This document shows, in pieces, positions 1-64,000 of a stretch of DNA of 64,000 nt. The DNA is taken from contig CM019701.1 in NCBI GenBank assembly GCA_009760885.1, positions 15,955,475-16,019,474 on the forward strand, given 5' to 3'. The notes beneath the pieces are model-generated. The model was not told where the DNA came from and searched no databases. It was given only the letters and a program-made list of their open reading frames with translations. Origin of the DNA: Achatina immaculata. Its lineage: Eukaryota > Mollusca > Gastropoda > Stylommatophora > Achatinidae. A program made the translations under genes and the position numbers. Every line of letters begins with the position of its first letter. Position 1 is the stretch's first letter.

Positions 1-1822
1 TATATGAGCTATAGAGTTCTACGATATCTGCCATTAAACGTGTGTAATCTGAAAATATTTTCCAGATACTTACCCAGATACTTCAATTTACGTATTTGAA
101 TATTGCACAAAAATTGCTGTAGCACTCATCTATCGTATAGTTGGTGTGACATTTTATAATTATCAATGCCCTGTTAGGATGAATATATAAAATGTGTTAT
201 CATGTGACTACGCAATTACCCACTGAATATATGACTAATCTAATTTATTATTGCGAGAGAAAAGATCAATAATGACAGCCCATAATTTCATGAATATCAC
301 AACCCAGATGCACGTTTTATTACAAGAAATACTTATCTTATTTTTAAATCCTATTCGTAAATTTATTTTTAATTAGAAGTTATCACCACTTAATATTTTA
401 AATGTATTTTGTTCTGATTAGTGCTAGAACACACTTCTTGGTTGCCATAAGTCTGTTTTCTGACAATTCGAACTGTTATTTGTTTAACATAGACATTAGT
501 TTAATTATGTGATTCTTCGACGTTTTTATGTAGCAAGGAACAAAACGTTTTCAGTTTAATCTTCAGAAAAATATGAACATTTTACAATAGGTTTTATGTT
601 CTAACCTACACATGAAAATAATTAGAGAGATGAGAATTAGAACGAACTGTACTTGCTTATTTTGTCTTGTATAACTCACCACAATTGCATTTCTAAATGA
701 TTCCAGAGGGCGGTATGTACTGTTCTGTCTATTTCCTTTAACATAAACTGATCGTATCCCTGTTACTTATTGGTGCACTTTTTATTCTTATCAATTTTCA
801 AGCTCTTTATAGAATGTTCCTTTCAAATAATTGAATTCTGCAGACAAAATGTTGAAACGTCTGTATGAAACAGAATCCAATGAAGCAATATCCAGTATCA
901 CAGCTACAGGTGCCATCAATCTGCATTTAATTGTTTAAATAAAAAGAGAATTTTGTACTAGAAGGAGTTTGCCGACATCATTCAGGGACAACATCTGTTA
1001 AAGACTGAATCATACTTTACTATTTATGTTTAATAGAAAATCTATAACACAAAAACATTTTTAATCATAAAAAAAGCTGGTATGCCACATTTTAACGATG
1101 TGCAAACTAACGAATTCCAGATTCTGAAACAAAGTGTTTTTTGGTTTGTTTTTTTTTAATTATCCATTACTTTTTTTTAAATTGGAATTTCTATGGAACA
1201 TTTAGATGTACATTTTTTTAAAACTTGTAGTAAAAATTTCATGAATCAGGATAATGAAAATAGGCGTGAAACTTGTTTTAGCATTATTATTATAATATTA
1301 TCAAGACGTGCATGGGTATCCCATCTTTAATCATACACACACACACAAATTAGATACCCCCGTCCTCCAACTTTAATCATACACAAAATTCATTCAGTGT
1401 GTTATAATACCAAGTCAAGTCCGAATATTTAATATTTGGAAACAAAACTGTAAAAGAAACTTTTAGCACTTACATTAATGATTAAAACTGTTCCTCATGT
1501 TTGTTTTAAATAATCTAATATTTTATTATTGCACCTGTACTGCGTGGTTTTGTGTAAATTTAGTTTTATATTGTAAGTCTCAAAAAGGAGGCGTGTTACA
1601 CACAAAACAGAGATGATTCAGTTTGCTACCATAAACTTGATGTAAATCAGCGTTTATCTTTTACTTAATCATACACATACGCATATTCGAGATTTCCACG
1701 GCTATAATCGTACACACAGGCTCTCAAACACACAAATAACATTACATCCAGATATATAATCACACACATACACACTAAACAAAAACACATACTTACAAAC
1801 ATTAATCCCTACTAACTATGGT

Positions 1823-2205
1823 TCATTCATTCATTCATTCATTCCTTTGCATGTCCCTTGCGGAACTTTGCCTCCCAAACAGCACTCCTGTAGGCCTCTC
1901 GGTTGTGAGCAAGATGGCCTGCTGCTGCTGCATCCATTTGCAGATCATCAACGATGTCTTGCAGCCATCTTCGTTTCGGTCTTCCTCTCTTTCTTTTTCC
2001 CATTATGTATCCCTCCAATATGGTCTTCTCTAAATTATCATGACGTTTAATGTGGCCAAAATATTTAAGTTATCTCTCTTTAATCCTCTTTACTAGCCAG
2101 CCTTCATCAATATTAAGCTCTTGCAGTATAGATATATTTGTTCGTTTTTGTGTCCACGATATTTGGAGAACTCTTCTATAGCATTTACATTCAAAGGCAT
2201 TTATG
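1823..2205 (-). mobile_element. 5'-truncated RTE-like retrotransposon 3' end (family C)
   Basis: Read on the minus strand, this encodes the C-terminal tail of a non-LTR reverse transcriptase, including the ending HNREAYRSAVWEAKF. The (AATG)n 3' tail lies at the plus-strand left edge. Seven bases, ctatggt, are present at both 1816-1822 and 2206-2212 and look like a target-site duplication. Further copies of the family lie near 19945, 34226, 43208, 48430, 48720, 50141, 50431 and 56689. RTE-clade elements commonly end in short tandem repeats rather than poly-A, which fits. This piece has no catalytic domain and cannot move by itself. Confidence 0.75.
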
Positions 2206-2945
2206 CTATGGTAACATGCATAAATATTAAGTCTTATCACCTATTTCTTTAAAATAAGTCTCACGACAAGCAAGTAAAGTTGGAGAGAATATGTATGCAC
2301 CATCATCTGTATGTTTTGTGTCTTGACTATTTCACTTGAACAGCCTGATCCTGTTTGACAACCTCCTGTTGTAATGAAGACCAAGTTTGAGACTTACAAA
2401 AAACTAGCAGACTTTTAAGACGTGGCAGGCGAAAGATAGAAAGAAACTTTCACAGTCAACATCGTTAGTTTCTGTACATTCAGACTTCTCTAGCCTTGGT
2501 TCAGATCCCTATTTTCACACAACAGAGGCACAAACGTGTTCTATGTTCGGCAGGATACGTTTTTTTTTTTTTGCTAAGTTTTTACTTCCTGAAGTTAAAC
2601 TGCACACATCTGTCACATACAACTCATTACATTTTATTTAAGTTAGAAATACTTTCCAGCTTGTGACTGAACTCGCAGTTCATTTATTTGAATGTTTAAG
2701 AAGAACTGCTGGAGCATCAGTCTGAAAAAAAGAATTACCGTCAATATCAAATGTTACAGCTGCTGTTTTCTAGACTGTGTTTAGTTCTCAGGATCAGAGA
2801 TCACAAATGCTGAAGATCCTAATAGCTAAGAGTACAACATAAAAATTTGGTAAAAGATAATAGAAAGTTTCTCCTATTCATGAATCAGATTAAGAACATA
2901 TAAGTGTTTTCTTTTTATGTTTCTGTTTTTTCTTCAAAATTGTAA

Positions 2946-3092
2946 GGTATCTATCTATCTATCTATCTATCTATCTATCTATCTATCTATCTATCTATCT
3001 ATCTATCTATCTATCTATCTATCTATCTATCTATCTATCTATCTATCTATCTATCTATCTGTCTGTATTTCTGTCTGTCTCTCTGTCTCAAA
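2946..3092 (+). repeat. (TATC)n/(TGTC)n microsatellite, unit copy 1
   Basis: A run of about 28 TATC repeats passes into TGTC-like repeats. It lies at the same position in the unit as the arrays at 37726, 51607 and 55957. It opens a meaningless reading frame of repeated YLSI. Confidence 0.97.
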
Positions 3093-3094
3093 GC

Positions 3095-4248
3095 GTATTA
3101 CTTCCTCTGACAGTAGTGCCACAGAGAGTTATGATGCTACTGCTGCTAATCTGTTGTTTAATGGGATTTACATCTTTGTTTACGTAGAACTACTTTCTTT
3201 GGTTTAGACTTTATGAGATCTGCAACTATTGATCTTCTCAAAACTTCATATTTCTATGATGTCCACCTAGAAACATCTAACTCGGCAACCCAGGCATACG
3301 GCTCCCCACTAGAACAACATCAGAACAAGTTGACTTGACTTGACAGCCTTCCGACATCACACACGTGTTAACAGTGAGGGGATACCAACAAGCCCCATAG
3401 TGTAGTTTATCACAAATAAAACAAGTATATTAAATGATAGGATGGAGGATGAAGTTCTGCCGATGAGAAAACGTCTGTCACACAACACGGATGACAAATA
3501 CAGAAAAAACTCAACTTCCCGGCAAGAACTTGTTTGCCACATGTGGGGGGGGGGGGGGGGGGAATAACACTCAGACAAATAATGAGAGAGAAAAAAAGAA
3601 AATACTATTTATATGTATACTTAGAAATATATAAAACCACCCGGATGAATCTCTCAAAAAGGAAAACACACTTCACAAATGTCTACTCCAAAAGAATATT
3701 CCACAACTAACTGAGTATTAAAAAAACAGACGCCCAAAAAATAACATTCTAACAAGCTGTTCTAAAAAATGACAAAACCCATAAACTCACTACATCTAAG
3801 CTACAGGAAACTAACAGCCAAAACTTACTACATCTCATTCAAAAGTACTAGTCTACCTAACTCACATCATGATTCTGATTTCTCTCTAGCTCTGTCTTCT
3901 GTTTATTCTCTTTCATATTCTGATCTCTTTCCAAAAATCAATTTTATATAAACCTCTCATTTCCTACGACTCCCCTTGAAATTTACTTAACCGTGAACTC
4001 CAGTCGCATGTGAAACTAACTGTTTATGGCGTTTAGATGTTTCTAACATAGTTTTCGTGCGACTGTCAAAATATTTCACGCAACTTATTCTGTAACCTTA
4101 ACTTTTTGACACTTGAATTACTATTTTTAGCTCCCTCAGTGAACTTACAGACCCAAGGGACAAGGGTGAGATTTTATTAACAAGAGGACCACTTGCACTT
4201 AACTCAAATTATAAGCAATTGTCTCCCTTTCACCATTCCTATTGTTTT
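3095..4248. other. Unassigned AT-rich stretch with an 18-bp G tract
   Basis: This begins where copy 1 stops matching its sisters. It holds a run of 18 G at 3545-3562 and several short ORFs without recognisable domains. I see no gene here. Confidence 0.5.
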
Positions 4249-62600: not shown

Positions 62601-63200
62601 TTTCATGGACTGAGCGAGCGAGATAACAGTAAGTTAGTACATTGAATTTAATGGATTGAGGGAGCGAGATAACAGTACGTTAGTACACTAAATTTCTTGG
62701 ATTGAGGTAGCGAGATAACAGTACGTTAGTACATTGAATTTCATAGATTGAGTTAAGGAGATAACAGTAAGTTAGTACATTGAATTTCATGGATTGAGTT
62801 AACGAGATAACAGTAAGTTAGTACATTGAATTTCATGGATTGAGGGAGCGAGATAACAGTTCGTTAGTACACTACATATCTTGGATTGAAGTAGCGAGAT
62901 AACACTACGTTGGTACATTGAATTTCATGAATTGAGGGAGCGAGATAACAGTACATTAGTACAATGAATTTCATGAATTGAGGAAGGGAGATAACATTAC
63001 GTTAGTACATTGAATTTCATGGATTGAGGGAGCGAGATAACACTACGTTAGTACATTAAATATCATGGACTGAGGGAGCGAGATAACAGAAAGTTAGTAC
63101 ATTGAATTTCATGGATTGAGGGAGCGAGATAACAGTAAGTTAGTACACTGAATTTCCTGGATTGAGAGAGCGACAGAATAGTAGGTTAGTACATTGAATT
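59690..63200 (+). repeat. 46-bp minisatellite, about 76 copies, with higher-order structure
   Basis: Unit with 'cgttagtacattgaatttca' and 'ggagcgagataaca'. A distinctive run of variant units, including 'catggactgatggtgcgag', occurs three times, at 60262, 61043 and 62192. These are about 17 and 25 units apart, so multi-unit blocks have been duplicated. Confidence 0.95.
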
Positions 63201-63337
63201 CATGTATTGTGGATAGTACAGACAGATTAGCCGTGAGACAAATAAGTGCAGTGGCACATGGTATAAGTCAGAAGGAGAGCGTGGTGTAGTTTTGCAGAAG
63301 GACTGCAGATTCATAAGCACATTTGGCACCATCGATA

Positions 63338-63386
63338 TATGTATATATATATATATATATATATATCTATATATATATATATAGTT
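63338..63386. repeat. (TA)n microsatellite
   Basis: Two TA runs separated by one 'tc'. Confidence 0.93.
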
Positions 63387-63624
63387 GAATAAATATACAC
63401 TGGTCAGTAGGAGCAGAGGAACCCTGGCAAGTCTGGTATATTAATTTAGTGTTTCTTGGTTATATAAATGACGTGTAGTTATGTCACGCCTTGATGGTCA
63501 CATGATACTCGCTGACGACGTCCTGCTTGTGTTATGTCTGTGCTGCCGTCTCATGCCATGCGTAGCGTGTCAATAAAATAGATGTAATTAAATTTATGAC
63601 TTGGTAATATATATTCCATATTTT

Positions 63625-63790
63625 CTGTGATGTGTGGAAGTATATGATGTGATGTGTGGAAGTATATGGTGTGATGTGTGGAAGTATATGGTGTGATGTG
63701 TGAAAATATATGGCGTGATGTGTGGAAGTATATGATGTGATGTGTGGAAGTATATGGTGTGATGTGTAGATGTATATGGTGTGGTACATG
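63625..63790 (+). repeat. 22-bp minisatellite
   Basis: About eight copies of a unit with 'gtgatgtgtggaagtatatg'. The minus-strand frames rich in HH and TS come from it and are not genes. Confidence 0.93.
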
Positions 63791-64000
63791 ACTGGCATAT
63801 GGTATCTGTATGAGGGAGATCCTGGGTTGTAGTGCTATTTTTGATATGGCCACCCCAACACGGAAGTACACTGGCCATGGGTTGGGATTTCAGGTGGGTT
63901 TTGGTCATGTCCCTCCCCCTTATTGTCCCCAGTTGTGAACTTTAACCCCACTAAGTTTTGCACTATAGTATAGAATTATGCATTACACGTCGCATCACGT

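Follow-up and report, generated by a model that had tools for sequence, protein, structure and literature searches.

A probable relic macrosatellite of roughly 5-kb non-coding units on C19 of Achatina immaculata

What kind of locus would hold the same large non-coding unit several times over, in one orientation, within 64 kb of snail DNA (the window, meaning the whole stretch analysed)? An earlier note had described the window as about five diverged head-to-tail copies, each carrying a common anchor. Allowing up to three mismatches, we found the anchor at all five sites on the plus strand (281, 16564, 26924, 38968 and 53619, the fourth having been placed one base too early), where chance predicts a mean of 0.01 matches (100 shuffles). 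In addition, the TATC array at 55955 is followed by a sixth unit, which begins at about 56197 and continues beyond the window's end. The five copies were thus recovered, but they do not make up the whole window: only 18,294 of its 64,000 bases are recognisably unit, with 16,068 in short-period tandem arrays and 29,638 in other sequence, much of it retrotransposon. A composite reference unit, built from three copies with the short arrays left out, measures 4,933 bp instead of the 5.5-7 kb proposed and, as anticipated, no shared ORF was found.

All units lie on the plus strand. The later part of a first one, unit 0, occupies 1-3064, with pieces at 38-1821, 2229-2553 and 2576-2931 and then a TATC array at 2948-3064. 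A unit end fragment (9993-10155) and a TATC array (10174-10426), together spanning 9993-10426, are followed by the start of the unit at 10474-20746 (pieces 10474-10598, 12000-12496, 12668-13526, 16381-16745, 19006-19886 and 20169-20746), whose non-unit stretches include 13527-16380, with reverse-transcriptase ORFs, and 16746-19005, with a GIY-YIG ORF. The next unit, 21321-37727 (pieces 21321-21676, 25943-27086, 32927-34226 and 36204-37727), is joined through a TATC array at 37728-38206 to the unit at 38261-50132 (pieces 38261-39982, 40292-40464, 42116-42280, 42609-43180, 43363-43843 and 48116-48421, the last recurring at 49852-50132 through a recent 1.7-kb duplication). The least interrupted unit, 51753-55541 (pieces 51753-54332 and 54711-55541), is flanked by TATC arrays at 51618-51752 and 55955-56103, and the first part of the sixth unit (56197-64000) comprises pieces at 56197-56688, 56960-57140 and 58707-59258 and another from 63963 onward past the window.

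The window belongs to an array of about 220 kb on C19 (15.88-16.10 Mb), which extends some 78 kb to either side. The window is immediately preceded by a run of 5,000 N. Mapped unit segments of this array are on the plus strand in 114 of 114 cases. When the segments of the fetched region were mapped to the composite unit, 85 of 113 successive pairs (0.75) followed its forward order, against a maximum of 0.49 in 1000 shuffled orders. Ten end-to-start unit junctions were counted within 1 kb, and in seven the two ends are separated by 48-108 bp of TATC repeat; the junction 37727/38261 falls outside this count, as its start was assigned to a paralogous monomer. When the masked window was compared with itself, 167 matches (52.1 kb of alignment) were on the plus strand and 28 (5.0 kb, mostly mobile elements by inspection) on the minus strand, with collinear unit diagonals reaching 1.8 kb at about 68-80% identity. 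The ordered segments on one strand, the meeting unit ends and the long diagonals that the earlier note had called for were all borne out.

Searching the assembly with one part of the unit returned at least 71 rows, all on the plus strand of C19 (65 of them inside the array, the other 6 at 21.43 Mb), and the last monomer returned at least 66, with 49 in the array and 14 elsewhere on C19, all plus, and 3 on C30. Among the matches listed from these two different unit parts, all but three rows are on C19 (41.9 Mb), where relatives occupy 15.7-16.1 and 21.3-21.5 Mb. A second array, at 21.43 Mb, has a monomer subtype of its own (L035:4960-9900), of which closer relatives may lie elsewhere. Retrotransposons crowd the surroundings, as they might if the unit were itself a mobile element that had inserted repeatedly, a reading to which we give almost no credence: the units share a single orientation with their ends meeting, and no dispersed copies with fixed ends occur among the matches listed from 1.65 Gb. 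Since these fall on C19 except for three rows on C30, the unit is not a dispersed transposon.

Units above 1 kb (here about 4.9 kb), placed head to tail at a single locus and confined among the matches listed to C19 and three rows on C30, are those of a macrosatellite. The near-identical, exchange-homogenised units of such arrays are lacking, old copies being 0.70-0.83 identical, and with this likeness lost we class the array as a relic or variant macrosatellite. We consider it likely that it is a relic non-coding macrosatellite whose old head-to-tail units of about 5 kb were once homogeneous and then drifted. The diagonals and the matches, all but three of them on C19, also support the original suggestion that an old macrosatellite, or a locus duplicated serially, was later filled with transposons. 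In its kilobase units, head-to-tail arrangement and tens of copies the array resembles RNU2 and D4Z4. The D4Z4 macrosatellite carries the DUX4 gene. Human macrosatellites such as RNU2 are described, in excerpts from PMC4132748 and PMC3599962, as kilobase head-to-tail units in tens of copies; RNU2 carries the U2 snRNA according to such excerpts, unlike the present unit, in which no gene was found and homogeneity has been lost. Titles and abstract openings of the literature on macrosatellites in molluscs yielded no mollusc array.

Each unit is in turn made of older monomers of about 1.2 kb, visible as 57-72% same-strand sub-repeats within every unit, and several diverged monomers follow one another in fixed order, as in a higher-order repeat. 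Two types of block, C1 and C2, recur within units (147 and 82 rows, all plus; many of the 147 C1-type rows are minisatellite pieces). The sub-repeats show that monomers with C1- and C2-type sequence first duplicated in tandem, and the anatomy shows that three to four of them, with a TATC tract, then came to form one higher-order unit. Such units, chromosome-restricted, decayed, rich in insertions and with relatives elsewhere on C19, are also what an older centromere relic or pericentromeric satellite layer of C19 might leave, and human pericentromeric alpha-satellite layers are alike in kind, as excerpted from PMC9859433. We nevertheless hold this origin to be unlikely, as the family is absent from other chromosomes apart from C30 among the matches listed and the monomer greatly exceeds a nucleosome unit in length. 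The likeness to higher-order alpha-satellite and its decayed flanks, as portrayed in the same excerpts, covers grouped monomers, chromosome restriction, decay and local re-amplification. Unlike alpha-satellite, with its 171 bp monomer, the array has a monomer of about 1.2 kb; and where those excerpts (PMC9859433) describe layers with sharp homology steps, a near-star tree was obtained here.

In this tree the old copies have tips of about 0.1-0.2 changes per site; only a recent set, 0.91-1.00 identical, exceeds the 0.70-0.83 of the old copies. Three of 16 inner branches in a tree of 20 copies were starred; these unite recent copies and, in addition, one older pair. A few others had intermediate support (e.g. 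93/83, 87/88). All copies had been mapped to a single composite reference, and the star was kept after MAFFT realignment in this first region, with internal branches making up 10% of total length; in a second region (12 rows), likewise realigned, they made up 23%, chiefly along the stems leading to two recent sets. Identity is unrelated to the distance between copies along the array (Spearman 0.03, p 0.66, over 190 non-independent pairs). From the near-star tree and this lack of a distance effect, we infer that the array was once homogeneous, through concerted evolution or a burst, and was then frozen. The near-star trees point to copies that were once alike and later drifted independently, and not to a stepwise series, which refines the serial duplication suggested earlier.

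Given the near-star tree and the single orientation, unequal exchange, conversion or a burst would have multiplied the unit head to tail, to about 17 or more nearly identical copies. The star fits concerted evolution and a burst alike and has no power to separate them. A single rapid amplification, with no concerted evolution at any time and simple decay since, is a fair way short of an even chance. Such an event would leave a near-star tree whose tips are similar, but tandem copies of 11.0, 4.1 and 1.7 kb that are 99.3-99.9% identical show that exchange-type duplication works at this locus, and the nesting of 1.2-kb monomers within 5-kb units suggests repeated rounds. These recent copies also show that local tandem duplication is still going on. 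The trees, insertions and seams show that homogenisation ended and that the copies went on to diverge independently, by roughly 0.1-0.2 changes per site, as retrotransposons came in and some short stretches of the unit expanded into minisatellites. Our guess is that the inserted elements ended homogenisation by breaking homology. Usual models of tandem arrays have exchange keeping copies alike, whereas this array is seen after exchange between units stopped. Its roughly 17 old copies, drifting from a common state, amount to an internal replicate experiment in which a single locus gives access to the neutral rate, the insertion load and the birth of minisatellites, and positions resisting drift in many copies become candidates for function without a second species.

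Two such stretches lie in the last monomer and were spared from the drift. Block C1 (36311-36619, plus strand, slow core about 36455-36614; other window copies at 2259-2565 and 42830-43139) and block C2 (37361-37651, plus strand, slow core about 37394-37634; other window copies at 2576-2842 and 55343-55603) contain non-coding stretches of about 160 and 240 bp that are some 2.6 times less diverged than the rest. After leaving out 20 recent copies and 7 segments below 68% identity from the 114, divergence from consensus was 0.110-0.167 in nine unit stretches against 0.049 in the C1 core and 0.048 in the C2 core; restoring the 7 segments changed only the former, to 0.110-0.172. The lowest 160-bp mean was 0.034, against 0.078 as the lowest in 2000 permutations, and rates also vary upward (highest mean 0.211, permuted maximum 0.183). 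Single copies depart from this pattern: one C1 copy at window position -27769 is no slower than its flank (0.139 versus 0.141), one C2 copy, at 86837, shares the value of its flank (0.077), and beside the C2 copy at 2576 the flank has changed almost as slowly as the block (0.042 versus 0.025).

Slow, indel-poor and sharp-ended blocks look like exons, and C1 and C2 could be those of a decayed tandem cluster of protein-coding or lncRNA genes. Substitutions are phase-biased in reference positions 3541-3840 (p 0.001; 4 of 23 partly overlapping stretches below 0.05), and two of eight consensus pieces contain a frame free of stops whose length exceeds the 95% level for base shuffles (121 versus 93 and 83 versus 77 codons). 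However, each of the six frames has stops in 6-8 of 8 copies in both cores, phase bias is absent from the 121- and 83-codon frames (p 0.21 and 0.18), and no conserved reading frame was found in the units. The gap with which C2 begins in L037 proved to be an insertion with TGCA on both sides and mobile-element sequence inside, which also contradicts the exon reading. Finally, the ORFs of at least 130 aa listed for 284 kb, 10 of which were run against Pfam, resemble reverse transcriptase, transposase, low-complexity or unassigned frames, with one DEK_C ORF besides. A gene cluster is thus quite improbable.

The likeness of the blocks among copies could also stem from local gene conversion or low mutability instead of selection, which we rate at only a little under an even chance. 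In 8-copy alignments compared with simulated stars, the C2 core has 7 parsimony-informative sites among 35 variable ones against a mean of 1.2 under an equal-rate star (P 0.001; 0.003 with gamma rates; rate-fitted stars give 1.2 to 1.8), an excess of the kind that conversion or shared descent would leave. The left flank of C1 has 22 against 7.8 (P <0.001; 0.053 with gamma rates), and with these two excesses the last monomer departs from a pure star. The C1 core, by contrast, has no significant excess (5 of 48 against 2.7, P 0.14). Conversion is further countered by the restriction to just two short blocks, with sharp ends, in most copies, and by two loci lying 0.17 and 5.2 Mb from the array, at which C1/C2 are 84-86% identical to the reference and their flanks 69-76%; being near-duplicates of each other, these count as one observation. 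On the other side, no function could be named from structured RNA, rejected in six pieces (z 0.71, 1.12, 1.34, 0.43, 0.74 and -1.96) with unfavourable RNAalifold covariation terms (both partners changed in 1 of 65 and 1 of 67 pairs), or from CTCF, for which the best match to a 12-base core is 8 of 12 in one copy per block, equalled by 199 and 185 of 200 shuffles. A B-box-like word seen by eye in C1 was set aside, as chance easily yields near matches to a motif of that length.

C1 and C2 may nonetheless have a function, and selection of the kind seen in DXZ4 is possible. In excerpts from PMC3218863, this primate X macrosatellite appears as a single-chromosome tandem array of kilobase-sized, non-coding units; in distant primates its conservation is limited to short blocks (a promoter and a CTCF site) while the rest drifts. 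Non-coding kilobase units on one chromosome, with short conserved blocks amid drift, are thus common to both. Unlike DXZ4, which these excerpts (PMC3218863) describe as uninterrupted, the present array is filled with insertions and its old copies are 70-83% identical; its C1 and C2 were, moreover, defined by comparison within one genome and have no CTCF-like motif above shuffles. A tentative and rather doubtful proposal is that both blocks act as functional cis-elements, kept by purifying selection in most copies of a DXZ4-like architectural or regulatory array of an invertebrate, the rest of which was released from concerted evolution. The shared variants in C2 also point to conversion, making selection less likely and conversion more so. 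Constraint by a DNA-binding protein or by promoter or boundary activity is the reading we favour for C1; together with a contribution of conversion in C2, it is the least supported step of the proposed history and less likely than not. Were the cis-element reading true, the drifted copies would be parallel replicates marking functional bases, and if C1 or C2 binds a protein, the array would be an invertebrate counterpart of DXZ4.

Some minisatellites appear to have grown from the unit. Of 16 tested, 5 match it above all 200 shuffles, 4 of these at a defined seam; a unit origin for all of them was rejected on this count, and the large 44-bp (43953), 46-bp (59680) and 37-bp (7586) arrays have no unit match above shuffles. 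A 38-bp minisatellite at 25052-25939 (also 21746-21919) matches adjoining C1-type unit sequence, a 56-bp one at 55542-55818 matches adjoining C2 sequence and a 37-bp one at 54333-54710 matches unit sequence at its seam, all on the plus strand. The window contains no tRNA and no Rfam match at gathering threshold, while across all 22 fetched neighbouring loci (22 of 22) the sole Rfam matches were a U2-like copy and a fragment of 18S. A recent tandem duplication, 1,711 bp and 99.9% identical, lies at 48141-51569 on the plus strand and carries a reverse-transcriptase ORF.

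According to the earlier note, the window contains a large non-coding unit in five head-to-tail copies that have diverged, and our mapping bears this out. As reference we assembled a 4,933-bp composite unit from window positions 51753-54332, 1012-1840 and 36204-37727, onto which we mapped the five copies as well as a sixth that starts near 56197. The anchor, a short sequence marking each of the five copies, has five matches in the window with up to three mismatches allowed (0.01 expected), all on the plus strand. A self-comparison of the window with tandem arrays masked gave 167 plus versus 28 minus matches, which align 52.1 and 5.0 kb, respectively. 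Unit-derived sequence accounts for 18,294 bases, short-period tandem arrays for 16,068 and other sequence for 29,638. Among eight ORFs scanned for domains, five matched reverse transcriptase, one GIY-YIG and two had no match. The GIY-YIG ORF (17073-17564, minus strand), which we take to be Penelope-like, lies in a stretch interrupting a unit.

The array lies on contig C19 of the genome (G000, 1.65 Gb in 145 contigs; window at 15955475-16019474). We analyzed the window, 220 kb of neighbouring sequence fetched as 200 kb plus 20 kb, and the whole genome. The fetched region holds 114 non-overlapping unit segments, every one on the plus strand, spanning C19:15,877,821-16,097,832 and summing to 69.5 kb. 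In 85 of 113 successive pairs (0.75), the second segment lies further forward along the unit than the first, while 1000 shuffles gave a mean of 0.41 and a maximum of 0.49. At ten junctions, the end of one unit and the start of another lie no more than 1 kb apart; seven of them carry a TATC run of 48-108 bp. Continuity at the left edge of the window is not proven because 5,000 N, either an assembly gap or a withheld stretch, immediately precede it (C19:15950475-15955474).

The row counts of the two genome-wide searches are lower bounds, since each search scored 40 candidates, from 51 and 41 respectively. With the initial 2.6 kb of unit sequence as query, we found at least 71 rows, all on C19 and on the plus strand, of which 65 fall in the array and six at 21.4266-21.4303 Mb. 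The latter locus is a separate array of the same monomer type, with 64-69% identity to the query in five rows and 78% in the short sixth; its larger unit-like repeats are 85-92% identical among themselves. The last monomer, the end part of the unit, gave at least 66 rows, of which 49 belong to the array and 14 to other C19 sites (15.71, 21.31-21.32, 21.45 and 21.47 Mb, all plus). The remaining three are on contig C30 (minus) and match the three query stretches seen at C19 21.31 Mb, in unchanged order. The loci at 15.71 Mb (L037) and 21.31 Mb (L038) are duplicates 5.6 Mb apart, with 89-97% identity in their three longest matches. They have in common an insertion where block C2 starts, flanked on both sides by TGCA in L037.

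Within the unit, older sub-repeats are spaced by ~0.8-1.3 kb at ~57-72% identity. Iterated profile searches for two short slow-evolving blocks, C1 and C2, returned 147 and 82 rows, respectively, all on the plus strand, many of the C1 rows being pieces of 38-bp minisatellites. By our reading, a full unit comprises three C1 and four C2. Five of 16 minisatellites tested matched the unit above all 200 shuffles, including two 38-bp arrays (C1 type) and a 56-bp array (C2); the other 11 did not. The latter include the units of two very large minisatellites, at window 43953-47494 (44 bp x 81) and 59680-63209 (46 bp x 77), where unit sequence stops and then picks up again with almost no loss.

For 1.1 kb of the unit, the tree of 20 copies was near-star, with old-copy tips of 0.08-0.19. 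Of its 16 inner branches, three are starred, those leading to the recent 11-kb set, to part of that set and to one older pair; support is intermediate for another two joins (93/83 and 87/88). Realignment with MAFFT over 816 reference columns again gave a near-star tree (old-copy tips 0.09-0.17, internal fraction 0.10). In a second region with 12 rows the internal fraction was 0.23, ~0.22 of 0.25 of it being the stems of two recent sets. Pairwise identity was independent of how far apart the copies lie in the array (190 non-independent pairs; Spearman 0.03, p 0.66). The near-star trees and the lack of a distance effect suggest that most copies were once alike and afterwards diverged independently. 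At usual animal rates, as we assume them, the drift of the old copies would correspond to tens of millions of years. Recent tandem copies measure 11,035 bp (99.4% identity), 4,108 bp (99.3%) and 1,711 bp (99.9%).

The array shows a single orientation, a preserved order, a near-star tree and recent duplicates. In the best supported mechanism, unequal exchange built the array and homogenised its units, or a burst produced it; exchange between units then largely stopped and the copies decayed, and tandem duplication still proceeds on a small scale. Any cause for this stop is inferred, as is selection on blocks C1 and C2. Like known satellite arrays, the present one is tandem, chromosome-restricted and higher-order; in human alpha-satellite, higher-order arrays are bordered by diverged monomers and higher-order repeats (PMC9859433). 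The units of a living macrosatellite are near-identical, whereas those of the present array are not, and we therefore class it as a relic variant. Among the papers examined that mention both macrosatellites and molluscs, none describes such an array, as far as titles and the openings of the abstracts show.

Divergence from the majority base was computed from the 114 segments, leaving out 20 recent copies and seven below 68% identity. It was 0.110-0.167 in nine unit stretches, 0.049 in the C1 core (reference 3661-3820) and 0.048 in the C2 core (4600-4840), or 0.048 and 0.046 outside CpG. Restoring the seven segments changed the nine-stretch range to 0.110-0.172 and neither core. The minimum 160-bp mean was 0.034, compared to a lowest value of 0.078 in 2000 column permutations; the maximum, 0.211 versus 0.183 permuted, indicates upward rate variation elsewhere in the unit too. 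Per segment (at least 60 sites), the C1 core ranged over 0.006-0.081 in eight and reached 0.139 in one, and the C2 core over 0.017-0.077 in ten, where one equals its own flank (0.077) and another (0.025) has an almost equally slow flank (0.042). Outside the array, L037 and L038, tallied as a single observation because of their 89-97% likeness over the three longest matches, are 85% (C1), 84-86% (C2) and 69-76% (flanks) identical to the reference.

With such rates, C1 and C2 may be subject to selection. Against this reading counts an excess of shared-variant sites: seven in the C2 core versus 1.2 under a rate-fitted star (P 0.001; gamma rates 1.8, P 0.003), and 22 in the C1 left flank versus 7.8 (P <0.001; gamma rates 15.4, P 0.053). 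The C1 core agrees with a star (5 versus 2.7, P 0.14). The excess implies a part for conversion or shared descent in the last monomer, or at any rate in its C2. Tests for a structured RNA and, in the window, for a tRNA gave nothing, and no match to a CTCF-like core exceeded shuffles. A coding reading of the cores was ruled out by stops in 6-8 of eight copies in each frame.

Several other features were noticed. A 1.3-kb element with internal tandem parts of ~106 and ~88 bp is present in three copies, ~91-92% identical, at window 34901-36209 (plus) and 57171-58491 (minus) and at C19:16112721-16114033, the last starting ~93 bp past a partial 18S rRNA match (C19:16111482-16112627). A DEK C-terminal domain (E 1.4e-10) is encoded by an ORF at window 4804-5217 (minus), which sits in a 7-kb stretch without unit sequence (3089-9992). 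A U2 snRNA-like copy (55.8 bits) at C19:15879065-15879336, positions 3591-3862 of the fetched locus L011, exceeds the model in length and is flanked by unit pieces. Finally, the Haemocyan_bet_s domain has 69 matches in the genome, on C18, C19 and C20, and none in 14 control genomes. Together with matches of one piece to haemocyanin chains, including keyhole-limpet haemocyanin, this points to a mollusc. The domain matches mainly form two clusters, on C18 and C20, which are large haemocyanin gene clusters.
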